Positions 3,691 to 16,122 of a stretch of DNA of 33,856 bases are shown here, piece after piece (within the stretch, counting starts at the first letter, position 1; every line of letters begins with the position of its first letter). The notes beneath the pieces are model-generated. The model had not been told where the DNA came from. It saw nothing but the letters and a program-made list of their open reading frames with translations, and did no database searches. The position numbers and the translations under genes are program-made. The stretch is from assembly GCA_031264865.1 (NCBI GenBank), contig JAISDJ010000164.1, forward strand, positions 1 through 33,856. Reading direction: 5' to 3'. This DNA comes from Tannerellaceae bacterium (GTDB lineage: Bacteria > Bacteroidota > Bacteroidia > Bacteroidales > Tannerellaceae).

Positions 3691-4905
3691 ATGAAAAAGA
3701 ATAAGAAACTAATAATTGGCGTAGCAGTTGTGGCAATATGCGCTGTCTGCCTGTTCCTTTTCGCGGGAAAATCATCTAAAAATGTGCTAAGCCTGGAAAT
3801 GACGCAGGCAAGCCGCACAACGATCTCTAATTCCGTTACCGCAACCGGCACGGTAGAACCGGTAGTAAAGGTGGAAGTGGGTACGCAGGTATCAGGTATC
3901 ATCAACAGAATATATGTAGATTTCAACAGTGAAGTAAAGAGAGGGCAACTAATTGCCGAAATGGATAAAGTGAATCTGGAAGCCGAACTCCAATCTAAAG
4001 AAGCTGTACTGGCAAGCAGCAAGACGGAATTTGAATATCAGCAGCGAAACTATGCACGCAGTAAAACACTTTACGAAAAACAATTGATAAGCGATACGGA
4101 ATACGAAACAGCCACCTATACGTATGAAAAGGCAAAGAATAGCTATGAGAGTAATGTGGCCGACATGACAAAGGTTCGTCGCAACCTCGAATACGCCATC
4201 ATTACCAGCCCTATCGACGGCGTGGTAATTAACCGCGCTGTGGAAGAAGGCCAAACGGTAGCCGCAGGCTTTAGCACGCCAACATTATTCACCATTGCCA
4301 ACGATCTTACACAAATGCGTGTAATAGCCGATGTGGATGAGGCAGACATAGGTCAGGTGGAAGAAGGCCAAAATGTGAAATTTATGGTAGATGCTTATCC
4401 GAACGATGTGTTTGAAGGAAAGGTAACACAGGTACGGCTTGAAGCAACCACTACATCGAATGTAGTTACGTACGAGGTAGTGATCAGCGCCTATAACCCC
4501 GATTTGAAACTTAAACCGGGATTAACGGCTAATGTGACCGTTTATACGCTCGAACGTCCGAATGTGCTCACGGTACCGAGTAAAGCCTTGCGGTTTGTCC
4601 CTGATGCCGAAATACTCGAATCGATGAATATCATAGTAGAAAATCCGACAATGGAAACAATTCCGGGAAAACGAATTGTATGGAAACGGGAAGGAAATAT
4701 TCTGAAACCGAAACAAATATCCATAGGAACATCTAGCCTGAACATAGTAGAAGTGACCGACGGTCTGACCGACGGAGAGGAAATCGTATTGGATTTAGCT
4801 ACAGCAGGTCCAGCCGTAGCAGCCGGTCAGGGTGAAAGAAGTCCGTTTATGCCTGGCCCTCCGGGAAACAGGAATCGGAACGGAAATGGTAATGGCAACC
4901 GGTAA
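3691..4905 (+). CDS. MacA-like periplasmic adaptor (HlyD/MFP family)
   Basis: Membrane fusion protein that links the inner membrane ABC transporter to the TolC-like channel. One N-terminal membrane anchor at about residues 5-25 (IIGVAVVAICAVCLFLFAG) is followed by a lipoyl half-motif (VEVGTQVSGIINRIYV), a helical hairpin at about 90-165 rich in Glu, Lys and Tyr, the second lipoyl half (ITSPIDGVVINRAVEEGQTV), and a beta-barrel region with LKPGLTANVTVYT. Length 404 fits MacA. The last 20 or so residues are an unusual Pro/Gly/Asn/Arg tail (PGPPGNRNRNGNGNGNR) absent from textbook MacA. The gene begins 24 bases after the channel gene and ends 11 bases before the ATPase gene, so all are probably one transcript. 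Confidence 0.92.
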   Translation: MKKNKKLIIGVAVVAICAVCLFLFAGKSSKNVLSLEMTQASRTTISNSVTATGTVEPVVKVEVGTQVSGIINRIYVDFNSEVKRGQLIAEMDKVNLEAELQSKEAVLASSKTEFEYQQRNYARSKTLYEKQLISDTEYETATYTYEKAKNSYESNVADMTKVRRNLEYAIITSPIDGVVINRAVEEGQTVAAGFSTPTLFTIANDLTQMRVIADVDEADIGQVEEGQNVKFMVDAYPNDVFEGKVTQVRLEATTTSNVVTYEVVISAYNPDLKLKPGLTANVTVYTLERPNVLTVPSKALRFVPDAEILESMNIIVENPTMETIPGKRIVWKREGNILKPKQISIGTSSLNIVEVTDGLTDGEEIVLDLATAGPAVAAGQGERSPFMPGPPGNRNRNGNGNGNR

Positions 4906-4916
4906 ATAAGAGACTA

Positions 4917-5657
4917 ATGAAAGAGACCATCCGATTAGAACAGATAGGACGCGACTTCCATGTAGGAGACGAAGTGGTTCACGCTTTGCGTGATGTATCC
5001 TTCACCATATCCGAAGGAGAGTTCGTTACTATCATGGGAACATCCGGTTCGGGGAAAAGTACGCTGCTTAATACGTTAGGTTGTCTGGATACGCCAACAC
5101 GGGGCGAATATTATTTGGACGGAACCTCTGTGCGGACAATGGGGAAAAACGCCCGTGCAACACTGCGTAACCGCAAGATCGGTTTCGTGTTTCAAAGCTA
5201 TAACCTGTTGCCTAAAACAACAGCCATCGAGAATGTCGAATTACCCTTAATGTATAACCCGTCGTTTAATGCGTCGGCGCGTAAGCGGAAAGCTATTGAA
5301 TCGTTGAAATCTGTAGGGTTAGGAGATCGTCTGAACCATAAAAGCAATCAGATGTCGGGCGGACAAATGCAACGTGTAGCCATTGCCCGTGCACTGGTAA
5401 ATGATCCGGCGGTTATTCTGGCCGATGAAGCAACCGGAAACTTAGATACCCGTACCAGCCACGATATTCTGGTGCTTTTCCAACGATTACATGCCGAGGG
5501 ACGGACGATCATTTTTGTAACGCATAATCCTGAAATATCGTTGTATAGCAGCCGGAATATTTTACTGAAAGACGGGCGCGTGGTGACGGATACAACAAAT
5601 AAAAATATACATTCGGCAGCCGACGCCCTTGCCAAACTACCGGTAGAAAATGATTAA
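4917..5657 (+). CDS. ABC transporter ATPase (MacB/LolD-type)
   Basis: Nucleotide-binding subunit that powers the pump in the cytoplasm. All motifs are intact: Walker A GTSGSGKST at residues 41-49, Q-loop in GFVFQSYNLLP, signature MSGGQ (a conservative change from LSGGQ), Walker B VILADEATG followed by NLD, and the switch His in FVTHNPE. At 246 residues it is a stand-alone ATPase, so the system is split compared with E. coli MacB, where ATPase and permease are fused. The D-loop region and the tail (AADALAKLPVEND) show nothing odd. It lies between the adaptor gene (11 bases upstream) and the permease gene (10 bases downstream). Confidence 0.95.
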   Translation: MKETIRLEQIGRDFHVGDEVVHALRDVSFTISEGEFVTIMGTSGSGKSTLLNTLGCLDTPTRGEYYLDGTSVRTMGKNARATLRNRKIGFVFQSYNLLPKTTAIENVELPLMYNPSFNASARKRKAIESLKSVGLGDRLNHKSNQMSGGQMQRVAIARALVNDPAVILADEATGNLDTRTSHDILVLFQRLHAEGRTIIFVTHNPEISLYSSRNILLKDGRVVTDTTNKNIHSAADALAKLPVEND

Positions 5658-5667
5658 CTGAAAGAAA

Positions 5668-6888
5668 ATGAATATAGCAAATTTATTTAAAATAGCCCTG
5701 AAGGCGCTTGCCAACAACAAGATGCGCGGCTTCCTCACCATGCTTGGGATTATTATCGGAGTAGCTTCCGTTATTACCATGCTTGCGATCGGACAGGGAT
5801 CGAAGAAAAGCATCCAGTCGCAAATCAGTGAAATGGGCTCGAATAGGATTATGATACAACCGGGAGCCGATATGCGTGGAGGCGTAAGGCAAAGCGCCTC
5901 GGCAATGGAAACATTAAAACTTACCGACTACCGGAACATAGCGGATGAAACACGTTTCCTGGCAGCCATCTCTCCTACGGTAAACAGTAGTGGGCAAGTA
6001 ATCTACGGAGCCAATAATAAACCTAGCACTATCTATGGCGTAAACCAGGATTATTTGGAGATACGTCGTTACAACGTAAACGACGGAAGTATGTTTACCG
6101 AACAAGATATTGCCAGTGCAGCTAAGGTATGCGTAGTGGGAAAAACCGTTGTCGACGAATTATTTACGAATGGAGAAAACCCCGTGGGGAAAGTTGTCCG
6201 CTTCAATAAAATTCCATTCACCATTATAGGCGTACTTACCAGCAAGGGATATAATAGCATGGGTATGGATCAGGACGACGTCATTTTAGCTCCATTTACA
6301 ACCATCCAAAAGCGCGTCCTGGCCATTACCCATTTGCAAGGGATCAATGCTTCGGCTATAAAAGAAGAATATACCCAACAAGCCATTGATGAAATCTCGG
6401 AGATTTTGCGCCGGAACCACAAGTTGAAACCGGAAGATGCTGACGACTTCACCATCCGTTCAATGGAAGAGCTTAGTTCGATGATGACCTCTACGATGAA
6501 TTTACTGACGATTCTCCTGGCATCGGTGGCGGGTATATCCTTATTGGTGGGAGGTATCGGGATTATGAATATCATGTATGTGTCGGTAACGGAGCGTACG
6601 CGCGAAATTGGTCTCCGGATGAGTATCGGAGCTAAGGGGGTAGATATTCTTTCGCAATTCCTGATTGAATCCATTCTGATTAGCGTAACCGGCGGGCTGA
6701 TCGGCGTTATCTTTGGAGTCATTATGGCATTGCTTATCAAATTCGGCGCTAATTTCCCGATATATGTACAAACATGGAGTATTTTCCTTTCGTTTGGCGT
6801 ATGTACCGTTACAGGTATCTTCTTCGGTTGGTATCCGGCAAAGAAGGCGGCACAATTAGATCCTATAGAAGCGATTCGTTTTGAATAA
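5668..6888 (+). CDS. ABC transporter permease (MacB/FtsX type)
   Basis: Inner membrane permease of the mechanotransmission class. Topology follows MacB: one transmembrane helix at about residues 20-42 (TMLGIIIGVASVITMLAIGQG region), a large periplasmic domain to about residue 270, then three helices near 280-305, 330-360 and 370-392. The cytoplasmic turn VTERTREIGLRMSIGA between helices 2 and 3 is the standard FtsX-domain signature, and the C-terminal LDPIEAIRFE is typical of the family. The 406-residue length matches split MacB permeases. The stop lies just before the histidine kinase gene, whose likely ATG is at 6905, so the sensor is probably transcribed with the pump genes. Confidence 0.94.
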   Translation: MNIANLFKIALKALANNKMRGFLTMLGIIIGVASVITMLAIGQGSKKSIQSQISEMGSNRIMIQPGADMRGGVRQSASAMETLKLTDYRNIADETRFLAAISPTVNSSGQVIYGANNKPSTIYGVNQDYLEIRRYNVNDGSMFTEQDIASAAKVCVVGKTVVDELFTNGENPVGKVVRFNKIPFTIIGVLTSKGYNSMGMDQDDVILAPFTTIQKRVLAITHLQGINASAIKEEYTQQAIDEISEILRRNHKLKPEDADDFTIRSMEELSSMMTSTMNLLTILLASVAGISLLVGGIGIMNIMYVSVTERTREIGLRMSIGAKGVDILSQFLIESILISVTGGLIGVIFGVIMALLIKFGANFPIYVQTWSIFLSFGVCTVTGIFFGWYPAKKAAQLDPIEAIRFE

Positions 6889-10288: not shown

Positions 10289-10419
10289 GACAAACGTTTA
10301 TTCTATTCTGATTTAGAGAATCTTTATAAGAAGCGAAGATAAAAACTTTTGAGAGATAAGCCACCGCTCCAAGCTAATTGAAAAGAAAAAAGATTATTAT
10401 TGCCCTATTTCTCAAGAGG

Positions 10420-10457
10420 TGCCGACCTGTTTTCAAAAAGGTTGGCATGAAATTTTC
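10420..10457 (+). repeat. Dispersed hairpin, copy B
   Basis: TGCCGACCT (10420-10428) pairs with AGGTTGGCA (10439-10447), one G:T pair apart from perfect, and the flank TGAAATTTTC follows. Copy B lies between the divergent peptidase and tRNA genes, so it is not at the 3' end of any gene visible here. The hairpin and flank match copies A (901-940) and C (23648-23685). The rest of the 10289-10511 gap shows only A/T-rich sequence. Confidence 0.65.
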
Positions 10458-10511
10458 AACACGATAAATTGTATTTTTCATGCGTTTATCCTGAAAAAAC
10501 GTTCACAGGTA

Positions 10512-10541
10512 TTGTATATTTAAAATTTCGTCTTACCTTTG
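10512..10541 (+). promoter_or_regulatory. Promoter of the tRNA-Lys gene
   Basis: TTG at 10512-10514, a 19-base spacer, then TACCTTTG at 10534-10541, a full match to the TAnnTTTG box. The mature tRNA begins 31 bases after this box. Confidence 0.7.
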
Positions 10542-10571
10542 CACCCGCGTTCACTATTAAACGCACAGGCA

Positions 10572-10644
10572 GATTTGCTAGCTCAGCAGGTAGAGCACAT
10601 CCCTTTTAAGGATGGGGTCCTGGGTTCGAACCCCAGGCAGATCA
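10572..10644 (+). tRNA. tRNA-Lys (anticodon TTT)
   Basis: A full cloverleaf can be drawn. Acceptor GATTTGC (10572-10578) pairs with GCAGATC (10637-10643) with one G:T pair. The D arm is GCTC/GAGC (10581-10584 and 10593-10596). The anticodon stem CATCC/GGATG (10598-10602 and 10610-10614) encloses loop CTTTTAA with anticodon TTT at 10605-10607. The variable loop is 10615-10619, the T stem is CTGGG/CCCAG with loop TTCGAAC (10625-10631), and the discriminator base is A10644. CCA is not encoded; the next bases are CTA. The gene marks the left edge of the A/T-rich accessory stretch. Confidence 0.95.
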
Positions 10645-10679
10645 CTAAAAGAATTCAAGGAAAAGGAATTCAACGTAGA

Positions 10680-10706: not shown

Positions 10707-10787
10707 TTTACGGTTGATCAATGAAATCAGGCTAAAGAATGCGTTGAAGGTTACGGACGCATGGTAGAGGAATAAATCAGACTCTCA

Positions 10788-10817
10788 TTTGGTAGAGGAA
10801 AGAATATATTATTTTTG
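10788..10817 (+). promoter_or_regulatory. Promoter of the two-gene phosphoesterase operon, with direct repeats
   Basis: TTTG at 10788-10791, an 18-base spacer, then TATTTTTG at 10810-10817. The expected start near 10824 would give a leader of about 67 bases before the ATG at 10891. The 10-base sequence GGTAGAGGAA occurs at 10763-10772 and again at 10791-10800, 28 bases apart, with the second copy abutting the -33 box. That position suits a regulator site, but the role is inferred. Confidence 0.6.
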
Positions 10818-10890
10818 CACTAACTAATAGCTAACAATCGTAATAGATAATAAAAATATCTTTTGTGGGAGAAGCCTTGAACAGAACATT

Positions 10891-13800
10891 ATGGGAAACA
10901 ATTACTTTATTGAAGATACAGCTCTTCTGATAGGGTTGATATCTATGCCTGACAATAAAAAATCCGAATCGTTTTTTAATGATAAAATTAAAGAACATTT
11001 GTCTGATAACTATAAGAAAGGCAGAAACGATTATAATATTAATAACCGTTCTGGTGAGACTGTAGATGATTTGTTGTATAACCCAATAGGTTTTAAAACA
11101 TTTGGTGATTACGACTTGGCTGTATTTTCACTCATTGATGATATATCTTATCCACATAGAATTTTTCACTCGCACAAAAGTCTGATGGAACCTGAGAATT
11201 CAGGAAATAAAGAATCCTCAAATGACAGCTATGACTACCAGGTTATAACTTGTATCAATACCTACAAAGGGAAAGATGCATACGAAGGTCCCCAAAAGCA
11301 TAAATTGAGCGATTTATTCAACCCTCCTTCCAAGAAATTTGACAAATACCCATACCTAAGTATCTCGAAAGCCAAGATAACAAATTATTTCTTAATGGGT
11401 AATGGCATAATTTTTAGTGATTTAGTTAAAAATAAATTATATGCTTTATGTGAAGAATATAATAAAGGGGAAGAAAAGCCAATAGAAATAATAGTTCTCG
11501 ATAGCTTAGGCAGTGAAGAATTGGTGATTGTTTCGTTCTCAAAAAATCTCTCATCTCTTATTCAGTTTGTCCACGAGGCTAGATGCCTACAATTGGAATC
11601 TCTCAGAACGGTTAATGAAGATCAATATAACGAAATCATTAGCAATAAACTGGATATATTCTCCTTGGACGAAAAAATAAACTGGAAAGAAACACATGTT
11701 TTCTCTGCAATGAACTCCATAGGAGGGTACAGGATTGACCTTGTAGAAAACAAGGTTTCAGAATATGACTTTCTGCCACAATCGTTTTCTGACCCGGACA
11801 ATTCTGTTTATATTGAATTCGTTTGGGATATAAAACCCGGACATGCAAAGAAATTTTATGAGAATCTGCGACAAAAAGGCAGACCTTACAAGTTGAATTT
11901 CGAGGAAGTAGATAGTGATCCTCTGCGTTTGTACAATAGTGCATGGAGATATAAATTACCGGTGCCCGACGAAACAGATCATGTCACAGTTACCGGGTTT
12001 ATCAACCAAATAGAATTCCTAAGAAAATTTGATAGTGAACATAGCCATACGCGACGCCTACGAATGAAAGTCTATTTAAAAAATGAATCAGGCATATTGA
12101 GTTTTTTACAACCAGTAAACGAGTTTGATGAGATTAATCACCCCAAGCCCAAATTATACAAAGGAAGACTTGTGTTCAGCCCATCTATACTCATCGGTTT
12201 GAGAAAAAATTTCAATAAAGCGAATATTTCTAAACTACTTCGGGAAAGGGTGATGAAAATGTATAATAACTACAACAGTTGTATATCAGACCCAATGTAT
12301 TTCTCCAGTTTTACCGATTTGGTTGGCTTTATGATTACTCTTGCTTCTGAATCATTAGACTATTGTAAGGGCGACTATCAATCTTCCATTGATTTTAACG
12401 AATGGATGAATGTTTGCGTAGAAAGTTTTGAACAGGCTTACTTTAATCGGTTTCATCAGAGTACCCGAATAAACGAGATTCCGGAGTTCAATATCGAATG
12501 GAATGGAGGGATTCAACAAATACTTTCATCGCTTGATTGTGCTTTCAAGGAACTTTCCGACAAGACTTACAAAACACATTACTATCAGAAATTTGTATAC
12601 GTATCTGGCTACGAACGGGTCCGTGTGAGTGAAAATACACTAAGAATTAATATGCTATACGTCACTTATCCGGAGTTGTTTGCCACATCTATATATAAAG
12701 AAGTTTTCAATTTTCTAGGACGTGAAAGTTTGAGGAAAGACTATGCCCCAGAGGCATTGACTAAATTTCGAGATCCCAATTACCCATCCTTTCTGAAGGA
12801 ATGTATTGAGAGACAGGCTGGCTATGACATGGGCAATTCAGTTCATAAATTTCTTTTAAGCAAGATAGACCGAGAACATATAAATACATTTATTGCCGAC
12901 TTCCTTTCCTATAATTACGGCTATGCGTGCGACTATGACTTGTTCTCACATTCATATTGGAAACATCTCTTACAAACATCTATGTTTTATGATAGATGCG
13001 GCCAACTGGACCATAAAATGTTTGTTTCATTTCTAACTCGGATGCTGTTTGTCTTTATCATTACCAGTAAAGAAGCAGAAGAAACAGAAGAGGCAGAAGA
13101 GGCAGAAGAAAGTTATGAGATGAAATTTCGCTTTACTCCCGAAAATACAGCTATCAGCGATCTTTGGATGCGTTACTACAACGATGTTCTGATTTTTGTA
13201 AAGTGTTTATGTACCATATTAAGATGGCACAAATTTAAATCTACGTTTTATGACCTCATAAATGTTCTGAAGGAAGAGGAGTTGACGAATGAAAATTTGC
13301 AATTGATGAAAGATAGAATCAACTTATCTCAGAGGAAAAACATCCCTGATGATATTGTAAGTGTTCTGTATGAAGTAAAAATAAAGAAAGATGTTGGATT
13401 AATAATAGAAAAATTTAAGCAGAACCGTATTCACGAATATAAAGATGGCGACAATGCTAGCTATTTTGTGACAAGTCTTTCGAGAGCTTTCCTGAAATAT
13501 ATGTATGAACTGGATATGGAAAATATCACATTAGAAAAGGGTAAGAGCATAAGCCATGTACTCGAAAGAGATGAAGAGGGGAAACCTAAATTAGAGGATA
13601 TGGAAGGGTGCTTTTCTAATATACTTTCAGATCCCCATGGTGGCCTCTTTTGTATAAACAGTAGTATCCAGAAAAAAAGCTTGTCAGCACGTATCGTATA
13701 CTACCGTTCTCTCTATCATTTTTGTATGAAGCGAAAAAATAAAAATATCAGTGAGCTAGCGGACAGAATGGATGATTTACGAGAAAAGATACAATCATGA
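10891..13800 (+). CDS. Large protein of unknown family, partner of the phosphoesterase
   Basis: I do not recognise the family. The 969 residues have no signal peptide and no clear membrane helix, so the protein should be cytoplasmic. Residues 1-240 show two similar alpha/beta units with a hydrophobic strand after an acidic turn (FGDYDLAVFSLIDD at 72-84 and SEELVIVSFSKN at 208-219). Another strand-helix unit lies near 305-400 (VYIEFVWDIKPGHAKKFYE). The 440-720 part is mostly helical; LYVTYPELFATSIYKEVFNF near 589-608 and the later INTFIADFLSYNYG near 665-677 recall the layout of zinc peptidases, but an HExxH motif is absent. A Glu/Ala repeat at 728-739 joins this part to a helical C-terminus. 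The stop overlaps the next start (ATGA), so the two proteins are translationally coupled. The gene is richer in A/T than its neighbours, in line with transfer. A sensor or substrate-recognition role for a conflict system is my guess only. Confidence 0.85.
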   Translation: MGNNYFIEDTALLIGLISMPDNKKSESFFNDKIKEHLSDNYKKGRNDYNINNRSGETVDDLLYNPIGFKTFGDYDLAVFSLIDDISYPHRIFHSHKSLMEPENSGNKESSNDSYDYQVITCINTYKGKDAYEGPQKHKLSDLFNPPSKKFDKYPYLSISKAKITNYFLMGNGIIFSDLVKNKLYALCEEYNKGEEKPIEIIVLDSLGSEELVIVSFSKNLSSLIQFVHEARCLQLESLRTVNEDQYNEIISNKLDIFSLDEKINWKETHVFSAMNSIGGYRIDLVENKVSEYDFLPQSFSDPDNSVYIEFVWDIKPGHAKKFYENLRQKGRPYKLNFEEVDSDPLRLYNSAWRYKLPVPDETDHVTVTGFINQIEFLRKFDSEHSHTRRLRMKVYLKNESGILSFLQPVNEFDEINHPKPKLYKGRLVFSPSILIGLRKNFNKANISKLLRERVMKMYNNYNSCISDPMYFSSFTDLVGFMITLASESLDYCKGDYQSSIDFNEWMNVCVESFEQAYFNRFHQSTRINEIPEFNIEWNGGIQQILSSLDCAFKELSDKTYKTHYYQKFVYVSGYERVRVSENTLRINMLYVTYPELFATSIYKEVFNFLGRESLRKDYAPEALTKFRDPNYPSFLKECIERQAGYDMGNSVHKFLLSKIDREHINTFIADFLSYNYGYACDYDLFSHSYWKHLLQTSMFYDRCGQLDHKMFVSFLTRMLFVFIITSKEAEETEEAEEAEESYEMKFRFTPENTAISDLWMRYYNDVLIFVKCLCTILRWHKFKSTFYDLINVLKEEELTNENLQLMKDRINLSQRKNIPDDIVSVLYEVKIKKDVGLIIEKFKQNRIHEYKDGDNASYFVTSLSRAFLKYMYELDMENITLEKGKSISHVLERDEEGKPKLEDMEGCFSNILSDPHGGLFCINSSIQKKSLSARIVYYRSLYHFCMKRKNKNISELADRMDDLREKIQS
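13072..13107 (+). repeat. Four 9-base tandem units inside the 969-residue gene
   Basis: Four near-identical in-frame 9-base units (pattern GARRCAGAA) encode EAE-ETE-EAE-EAE at residues 728-739. They mark a charged linker between two helical regions, and the repeat unit keeps the frame if copy number changes. Confidence 0.75.
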
Positions 13801-15368
13801 AGAATATAGTTATACTCAGTCTCTCGGATCTTCACATCAGAGGAGGAAATTCCGATCCATTTGATCTTATCTCTTGTAAGTTTAAAGAGTTTATAAAAAC
13901 TAAGTTAAATGATCCCAAGGAAGCTGAGTGGAAGCCGGATTTTTTATGCATAACAGGAGACATAGCTCATAAAGCAAAACCCGAACAATATGAGATAGCG
14001 AAAAATTTTATAAATGAACTATGTAACCTGTGGAAAATCCCAAAAGAAAATGTTTTAATGGCACCTGGTAATCACGATATGTTCTTTAACGTAACACCTG
14101 TTAAACCTCCCCAAATTCATCTAAAAGACGGTGGAGTATCGATAACTTTGCTAGAGGGATATTCTAATTATTGTAATTATCTTGAAAAGTATTTTAACCA
14201 ATTAGAAAAAATTCTACCCAAAAAGAGAGAAACCATTGCAACGTATAAAGAAGAGAATTTCTCGACTATTGTTGAAATATTTGAAAATTATTGTAAATTT
14301 AGGCAGGAATTCATCCAAAGTGCCTCTCTTGATTGCGAATATATCCACTCCGATCTTTTTCGAGAGGCAGAAAAGTTAAAAAACATAATGGGATGTGTCA
14401 AGTTTCCGAAAAGACGCATTGCCTTTATCGAATTTAATAACACATGGAATTCGGTGCCTGAAGACACGCTTTCGTTCCGACGTTTTCAGTTACAATTTGG
14501 TGTCGATATTGTAAAAGATATTGAAAAGAAAATAGACAAGCTCAAAAAAGATAATTATATCATCATATCTCTGTTTCATCATCCTATATACAATCTGAGT
14601 GAGCAGGAGTATCAATCGTCTGGATCCAATCCCTGCGTGTACGATCTTATCATTGAAATGTCTGATATTTGCCTCTCAGGGCACCAACACGGCCCCAAAG
14701 CCAAAAAACCGGATCGCCTTGCCAACAAGACACAATATTTTCTGAATGGTGCTTTTAATGATAAAAACGAATATGCGAACGATTGCTCAGCTTCTTTATT
14801 AAGGATAAATCGTGTTGAGAATACCGTAGAAGAAAGATATATAACTCAGGATTCTGACCAAAAATGGTGTTTAGGCGTAGTAGATTCCAATATTTATCCG
14901 TTATGTCGTCGTATTAAGAGTCACAAGGACCGAGAAGATGAATTATCTTCTACTGAGGTTTCTCATAAGTTACATAATCAGGATAATATATTATTCAATA
15001 ACATAGTTACCTCCTATTTTGGAGAGCGTTTTAATTTGATTAATTCTGATGAAGGTAAAAATGAAGGTGTTTCTGTTAGAAAGCTACAATATGGTGACGA
15101 AAACGAGCTTGTAGGAACTATCTTATTTGTCGAATTGAGCTCATATTCCAAGAAGCAGATTATTTTGATCAAAAAAGTTATTGAGCATGATGGGACCATT
15201 CCTATTCCGATCGGTGTATATGCTGACCAAAATATTCGTAGGACTGAATTCGGGGATAAAAATGAAGAAAATTCGCCCCCGGAGTACAATCGTTTAGCCG
15301 AAGAACTGAATACCCATATCCTCAAAGGAGAGGTGCTTCTTTTCTTAGTGAAAACAAATATTGTTTAA
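13797..15368 (+). CDS. Calcineurin-like metallophosphoesterase with extra C-terminal domain
   Basis: Two-metal phosphoesterase; possible substrates include nucleic acid, nucleotides or phosphoproteins, and the sequence does not decide. All metal-binding motifs are present: Asp11 and His13 in SDLHIRGG, Asp55 in ITGDIAH, Asn92-His93 in APGNHDMF, His261/His262 in LFHHPIYN, and GHQH at 295-298. Between GNHD and the strand RIAFIEFNNTW (about 207-217) there is a helical insert of roughly 105 residues, longer than in small family members. After the catalytic core (to about 345), a linker leads to an alpha/beta domain at about 395-523, including VGTILFVELSSYSKKQ and GEVLLFLVKT, that I cannot assign. 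There is no signal peptide. The 4-base overlap with the 969-residue gene implies coupled translation and a shared task. Phosphoesterases of this fold with C-terminal extensions have been proposed as parts of prokaryotic conflict systems; membership here is inferred. Confidence 0.92.
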   Translation: MKNIVILSLSDLHIRGGNSDPFDLISCKFKEFIKTKLNDPKEAEWKPDFLCITGDIAHKAKPEQYEIAKNFINELCNLWKIPKENVLMAPGNHDMFFNVTPVKPPQIHLKDGGVSITLLEGYSNYCNYLEKYFNQLEKILPKKRETIATYKEENFSTIVEIFENYCKFRQEFIQSASLDCEYIHSDLFREAEKLKNIMGCVKFPKRRIAFIEFNNTWNSVPEDTLSFRRFQLQFGVDIVKDIEKKIDKLKKDNYIIISLFHHPIYNLSEQEYQSSGSNPCVYDLIIEMSDICLSGHQHGPKAKKPDRLANKTQYFLNGAFNDKNEYANDCSASLLRINRVENTVEERYITQDSDQKWCLGVVDSNIYPLCRRIKSHKDREDELSSTEVSHKLHNQDNILFNNIVTSYFGERFNLINSDEGKNEGVSVRKLQYGDENELVGTILFVELSSYSKKQIILIKKVIEHDGTIPIPIGVYADQNIRRTEFGDKNEENSPPEYNRLAEELNTHILKGEVLLFLVKTNIV

Positions 15369-15440: not shown

Positions 15441-15471
15441 TTTGATATTCTTGTAATTAGTTTTATATTTG
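15441..15471 (+). promoter_or_regulatory. Consensus promoter of the 70-residue ORF
   Basis: TTTG at 15441-15444, a 19-base spacer and TATATTTG at 15464-15471, a perfect match to the Bacteroides consensus. It lies 50 bases before the ATG at 15522, so the small gene is likely transcribed separately from the phosphoesterase pair. Confidence 0.7.
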
Positions 15472-15521: not shown

Positions 15522-15734
15522 ATGGCTTACACAATTAAAGAACTTTTGGAAATATTGCATCCTGAAATGGATGCAGAGGGAATTTCCGATTTAATGGAGG
15601 GAATGAGTGAATCACTTTTGAATTCAGATTTGAGTAGTTCTAATTATGAGGAAGTAAAGGCTGCTGTCGACGCATCTTTGAAAGAATTGCCGGCAGAGCG
15701 TTCTACCGAGGTTTGCTACTTCATACATATTTAA
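15522..15734 (+). CDS. Small acidic protein of unknown function, 70 residues
   Basis: No family recognised. The product is acidic (many Asp/Glu, few Lys/Arg), probably helical, cytoplasmic and without a signal peptide; it begins MAYTIKELLEILHPEMD. A good Bacteroides promoter 50 bases upstream supports real expression. The C-terminal residues CYFIHI break the helical, charged pattern and may be a frameshifted end, so the gene could be a shortened form of a longer ancestor. It lies between the phosphoesterase gene and a Fic-like remnant in the A/T-rich accessory stretch. It could be a third component of the phosphoesterase system or unrelated; I have no evidence for either. Confidence 0.6.
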   Translation: MAYTIKELLEILHPEMDAEGISDLMEGMSESLLNSDLSSSNYEEVKAAVDASLKELPAERSTEVCYFIHI

Positions 15735-15843: not shown

Positions 15844-16122
15844 ATGCCGACTCTCTCAATTTGTTATCCCATACTTCGTAAGCTATATAATATGTTTCTA
15901 AGTCTAAATCGTGGGAATTTCTCTGAAATAAAACTGTCGGAGGGTTATATCAAGCAATTGCGCCAGCTTTTACTGAAGTATAGCAATAAGGATGAACGAC
16001 ATCGTGGCGGATATAAACATTTGCCCAATAAGGTAGTTGCAACTTATCCGACAGGCAAGAAAAAGACGATTTTTGCCATCACTAAACCGGCTTATGTAAT
16101 TAACGACGAAAAACAATTATAA
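15844..16122 (+). pseudogene. Probable remnant of a Fic-family protein
   Basis: The 92-residue frame contains SEGYIKQLRQLLLKYSNKD, then ERHRGGYKHLPNKVVA, which I recognise from the N-terminal half of Fic (AMP-transferase) domains in Bacteroidetes, where a similar YIKQLH...KDERHRGxYK...NxV block precedes the catalytic loop. The catalytic HPFxxGNGRxxR motif is absent and the frame ends soon after the block (KPAYVINDEKQL). An in-frame stop at 15829 blocks extension upstream. I therefore read it as a decayed piece and not a working gene. An alternative is a small stand-alone protein. Family assignment is from memory of the motif and is not checked. The gap at 15735-15843 contains nothing I can name. 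Confidence 0.45.

Follow-up and report, generated by a model that had tools for sequence, protein, structure and literature searches.

What is the function of the two overlapping genes that follow a tRNA-Lys gene in a Tannerellaceae genome, one encoding a calcineurin-like phosphoesterase and the other a very large protein? We addressed this question in a contig of 33,856 nucleotides (JAISDJ010000164.1, assembly GCA_031264865.1), hereafter the window, which belongs to a draft assembly of 376 contigs with 6.86% contamination. Taken together, the comparisons presented below are best explained by a mobile immune module that is rare, has a core not described before and can exchange its effector. 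No published description of this pair was found in searches of open-licence full texts.

Gene pair and its setting

ORF calling in the window confirmed two genes, 10891-13800 and 13797-15368, that overlap by 4 bases (ATGA) as the first-pass annotation had described. The features of the locus are as follows.

10572-10645, + strand: tRNA-Lys (ttt), likely former integration site (ARAGORN; integrase gene after the same tRNA in the genus-mate G003)
10713-10772, + strand: tyrosine integrase remnant, 20 residues, one stop (similarity to the G003 integrase)
10788-10817, + strand: Bacteroidales-type promoter-like site TTTG-N18-TATTTTTG (pattern scan)
10891-13800, + strand: 969-aa large protein, putative core or sensor (ORF; relatives in genomes G119 and G1190)
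12433-12720, + strand: most conserved stretch in the large protein, aa 515-610 (conserved with G119 and G1190)
13797-15368, + strand: metallophosphoesterase (MPE), 523 aa, proposed effector (PF00149; DS8_antiphage and DS9_1_antiphage below cut-off)
14904-15365, + strand: C-terminal part of the MPE, aa 370-523, possible coupling domain (no match in Pfam or with the GAAD of the plasmid relatives)

The ORF of the large protein begins 246 bases 3' of the tRNA-Lys end, and the pair has a G+C content of 0.352 versus 0.433 in the remainder of the window, in agreement with the A/T-rich position after a tRNA gene noted earlier. From their translations, we take one flanking gene to encode an enzyme of the penicillin-binding protein 4 type and the other an AcrB-type exporter; no other defence genes were identified within the window. 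As to the single shared promoter claimed earlier, a promoter-like site starts exactly at position 10788, the first position of the stretch singled out in the first-pass annotation, and matches the Bacteroidales-type promoter consensus TTTG-N18-TATTTTTG. Since the + strand of the window carries four matches to this pattern, three of them elsewhere, its assignment as the promoter of the pair is suggestive only. Two short ORFs lie 3' of the MPE gene. The ORF at 15522-15734 (70 aa, with a promoter-like site at 15441) has no clear family in Pfam apart from a weak HMD match (0.024), and that at 15844-16122 has only a weak Pfam match to FtsH_ext (0.064). With its motif LLKYSNKDERHRGGYKHLPNKV, the latter may resemble part of a Fic-type protein.

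The metallophosphoesterase and its plasmid relatives

The MPE is a calcineurin-like enzyme (PF00149 in Pfam, E 6.8e-13, 49.9 bits with a cut-off of 21.5) with the full set of metal-binding motifs; D11, H13, D55, N92-H93, H261-H262 and GHQH at 295-298, which the first reading of the sequence had listed as intact, were all found. In an alignment of the window MPE with four GASH-linked plasmid relatives, these motif positions, the L/Q fillers excepted, were invariant across all five sequences, and ten active-site residues were identical in all of them. The best NCBIfam matches were DS8_antiphage (7.1e-24, 83.6 bits, cut-off 790) followed by DS9_1_antiphage (1.8e-12, 46.9 bits, cut-off 420), both scores being far under the curated cut-offs and derived mainly from aa 9-100, and the PADLOC matches were PDC-S60 (1.8e-18), Effector (3.5e-12) and PDC-S10 (1.2e-4). 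PF00149 occurs at eight places in the source genome, the window MPE included; among the six other MPE ORFs scanned (of seven other places), none matched DS8 or DS9 at E<=0.01. According to PMC13092281, DS-8 and DS-9 are DefensePredictor systems composed of a metallophosphatase with NACHT and a metallophosphatase with HAD, respectively; both protect E. coli, protection is lost on mutation of metallophosphatase residues, and the substrates are given as unknown. The C-terminal region of the window MPE (aa 370-523) matched nothing in Pfam, GAAD included, and its comparison with the GAAD region of the plasmid relatives was empty. Neither the MPE nor the large protein contains a Walker A motif or, by hydropathy, a transmembrane segment.

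A tblastn search of plasmids with the MPE yielded 13 records, each with less than 80% coverage, of which six were inspected (Pantoea, Klebsiella, Paraburkholderia, Aliivibrio, Nostoc and Deinococcus). A GASH gene, a hallmark of GTPase-based conflict systems, accompanies the MPE in four of these six. The GASH-annotated gene lies directly 3' of the MPE in Pantoea, Klebsiella and Paraburkholderia, and in Aliivibrio the DNA between the two contains a hypothetical gene along with an IS30 transposase. By Pfam, the Pantoea operon comprises five genes encoding Metallophos+GAAD, GASH, DO-GTPase2, DO-GTPase1 and GAP1-N1, and the final gene of the Paraburkholderia and Aliivibrio operons is likewise GAP1-N1. 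The Pantoea-type operon corresponds to what PMC7159879 describes as the GAP1-N1 GTPase-centric conflict system; that paper names the calcineurin-type domain as the commonest effector of these systems and presents GAP1 as large and multi-domain, with the role of coupling effectors. In the Nostoc relative (L037:4403-8734), WD40, Ras/Roc and MPE are joined in one chain and a NACHT gene follows it, and in Deinococcus the relative found was a short MPE flanked by transposase genes. Judged by its sequence kinship, the window MPE is of the conflict-system type.

The large protein

Nothing in Pfam, NCBIfam, PADLOC, PHROGs or the PDB sequences matched the large protein convincingly, and the PDB sequence search returned nothing at E<=5. 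The first-pass annotation had allowed that it might turn out to be a known metabolic or structural protein; no such family was found for it. Two candidate identities were considered and set aside, likeness to a receptor (best PDB profile match 0.25) and likeness to the WhiA LAGLIDADG domain (weak Pfam match, 0.12). Identity with GAP1 or GASH found no support, the comparisons of rather thin profiles being empty, though the large protein may be distantly related to them. An AlphaFold2 model computed without an alignment reached a mean pLDDT of 34.6, a very low confidence, so that its mixed alpha/beta N-terminal half and helical part from about residue 430 are a hint only.

The block of aa 515-610 that is conserved among the relatives carries the motifs NRFH .. 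NGGIQQ .. TYPELFA .. KEVFN, and where the window protein ends this block in KEVFN, the G1190 relative has HEAAN. The KExxN / HExxN element could be a worn zincin-type helix, and therefore the putative sensor may descend from a peptidase.

Further copies at other sites

In the genome searches, counts include the query genome where it was sampled, the samples overlap, and scoring in the large searches was limited to the top two candidates of each genome. The large protein was found in 2 of 123 genomes of the family, 1 of 395 of the phylum and 2 of 395 of the class, as well as in one of 60 genomes around G119 (G119 itself) and one of 64 in the order of G1190 (G1190 itself). Profile searches gave 1 of 393 in the order (profile A3) and 2 of 395 in the phylum (profile A12). 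The A12 match in G445 (E 0.0046, 14.4 bits) contains three stops and was dismissed as chance. The MPE was found in 2 of 123 genomes of the family. In addition, pattern scans of genome contigs (MPE and large protein) and of viral contigs (both proteins, the conserved block and a two-row alignment), based on short peptide patterns that find mainly close relatives, yielded no confirmed relative. Tblastn of the large protein and of its G1190 relative against plasmids and phages gave no match, nor did the conserved block against plasmids, the MPE against phages or the partner of the G1190 relative against plasmids. The large protein was found in none of 17 genus-mates, several of them incomplete, and the pair is thus not a constant feature of one site in all relatives, the case that the first-pass annotation had named as refuting its reading. 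Searched across genomes, the large protein has two other copies, in G119 and G1190, at sites different from that in the window, and the MPE partner is kept in G119 alone. Three loci of the large protein are therefore known, one of them decayed.

G119 belongs to the same family and a different genus. By tblastn, residues 6-608 of the large protein match there at E 5e-60, two stops interrupting the match; a second piece lies in another frame, and the MPE lies 3' of it, spread over two frames. Because of the stops in the large protein and the frame shifts in both genes, both genes of this pair are decayed. Their G+C content is 0.391 versus 0.489 in the surroundings. The next gene 3' of the pair matches MkoC in PADLOC (5.4e-174, residues 3-804) and is divided over two overlapping ORFs; MkoC is a component of the Mokosh anti-phage system.

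G1190 belongs to another order of the class and encodes an intact relative of 1136 aa (E 3.9e-21; BLASTP 9e-32, with most of the length aligned), and T4SS coupling-protein and relaxase genes are nearby. Instead of an MPE, its partner, encoded 18 bases 3' in the same orientation, is a protein of 202 aa with three hydrophobic segments (predicted 3-TM), which had no match in Pfam, PADLOC or NCBIfam and whose best PDB matches were potassium channel pores (weak, E 0.075 and worse). We read the replacement of the MPE by this protein as a predicted exchange of the effector at one locus. Among four proteins near the G1190 copy, the sole PADLOC match was a weak one to PD-Lambda-3_A (0.0064), given by a DUF5677 protein; this protein and a CoiA_N-like protein (0.0018) are encoded at L049:3804-4709 and 4761-6254, respectively.

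Mobility and the tRNA-Lys site

The tRNA-Lys is present in 6 of 11 stretches around dacB, these being from ten genus-mates together with a second, partial dacB copy of the source assembly. In the genus-mate G003, the same tRNA-Lys is followed by a gene for a tyrosine integrase (XerD model, 3.9e-25). The remnant at 10713-10772 of the window, between the tRNA and the pair, has 16 of 20 residues identical to this integrase and 83.6% identity over 55 nt at the DNA level (E 9.6e-11). An integrative element was thus probably once inserted at this tRNA-Lys. An attR site was not found, the 3' end of the tRNA (12-25 bases) having no recurrence in the window, and for that reason we only infer that the pair was brought in by the former element. 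Absence from all 17 genus-mates, other sites in G119 and G1190, conjugation genes and the integrase remnant together mark the pair as a mobile accessory module.

Two further observations concern this region. In the window, the gap from dacB to the tRNA-Lys measures 283 bases (10289-10571), and an ORF intervenes in the six tRNA-bearing genus-mate stretches; this ORF is presumably permease-like. The second, partial dacB-lytR copy (G000:C276, L031) is 84% and 92% identical to the genes of the window, which fits a mixed-strain assembly.

Proposed function and alternatives

The first-pass annotation had compared the layout with anti-phage and other conflict modules, and this resemblance gained substance from the conflict-type MPE and from relatives of the large protein located at other sites, beside an mkoC-like gene or near conjugation genes. 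We consider it probable that these two genes form a conflict module acquired by lateral transfer and most likely directed against phage, composed of a core and an exchangeable effector. The large protein, as the core, would sense infection and hold the effector, and the MPE would be released or activated upon infection. The activated enzyme would then hydrolyse a nucleotide, a nucleotide signal or nucleic acid as its phosphodiester or phosphoanhydride substrate and so halt phage growth, perhaps via cell arrest. The effector slot would be exchangeable, as the predicted membrane protein beside one relative of the core suggests.

The gene overlap, the mobile setting and the decay in G119 also fit an addiction module, in which the large protein would be harmful and the MPE (in G1190 the membrane protein) would restrain it or destroy its signal in a toxin-antitoxin-like or self-controlling manner; phosphodiesterases can destroy nucleotide signals, and PMC7159879 lists this role for a calcineurin-type enzyme. 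However, a membrane protein such as that encoded second in G1190 would be ill suited as an antidote to the same toxin, no recognised toxin domain is present in the large protein, and because the protection by DS-8 and DS-9 is abolished without MPE activity, the MPE is better seen as an effector than as an antidote. We consider such an arrangement unlikely. Somewhat less likely still is a stripped GAP1-N1 GTPase system with the large protein as an unrecognised GAP1-kind core. The MPE type is common to the GAP1-N1 operons, and GAP1 is, according to PMC7159879, large, multi-domain and effector-coupling. On the other hand, a GAP1 match was absent in Pfam, the GAP1 and GASH profile comparisons were empty (with thin profiles), GAP1-N2 was found in neither of two genomes (the source genome and G119), and reading of the neighbouring ORFs revealed no adjacent GTPase or GASH gene. 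A cargo pair of mobile elements without an immune role, serving for example the nucleotide or DNA metabolism of the element, would agree with one copy near conjugation genes and another beside an integrase remnant, but the relatives of the MPE are conflict-system proteins and one copy adjoins an mkoC-like gene, and this explanation appears very improbable.

Within the preferred reading, a conflict module with an exchangeable effector, we propose with some reserve, and as the less probable outcome, that the large protein represents a type of immune core not described so far, which would need neither a nucleotide-driven switch nor GTPase partners and could be wired to different effectors, an MPE in the window and a pore-forming membrane protein in the order of G1190. 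If true, the pair would add an immune core family missing from the libraries searched, reached via an effector type proven in defence, and would widen the unsolved question of what the metallophosphoesterases of conflict systems cut. Moreover, the exchange of effectors around one core makes the core role testable, with the same sensor beside a soluble enzyme or a channel.

Comparison with known systems

Mokosh is linked to the pair only through the MkoC neighbour of the G119 copy, and neither the large protein nor the MPE matches a Mokosh model in PADLOC. The GAP1-N1 systems share with the pair a related MPE encoded as a separate gene and a large multi-domain partner. In contrast to them, the large protein showed no likeness to GAP1 or GASH in comparisons of thin profiles, the GAAD of the Pantoea effector is not found on the window MPE, and in place of an operon with two DO-GTPases and GASH there is a two-gene operon with neither GASH nor GTPase in Pfam, its flanks being judged by reading. 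From DS-8 the pair differs in that NACHT is fused to the MPE there, whereas here there is no NACHT in Pfam and no Walker A in either protein, and from DS-9 in that the partner there is a HAD phosphatase and here a 969-aa protein without a HAD match or known family. Although the NCBIfam equivalog cut-offs for both are missed (83.6 versus 790 and 46.9 versus 420 bits), DS-8 and DS-9 gave the best NCBIfam matches and have an MPE domain of the same type, and the active site that is required there is intact here.
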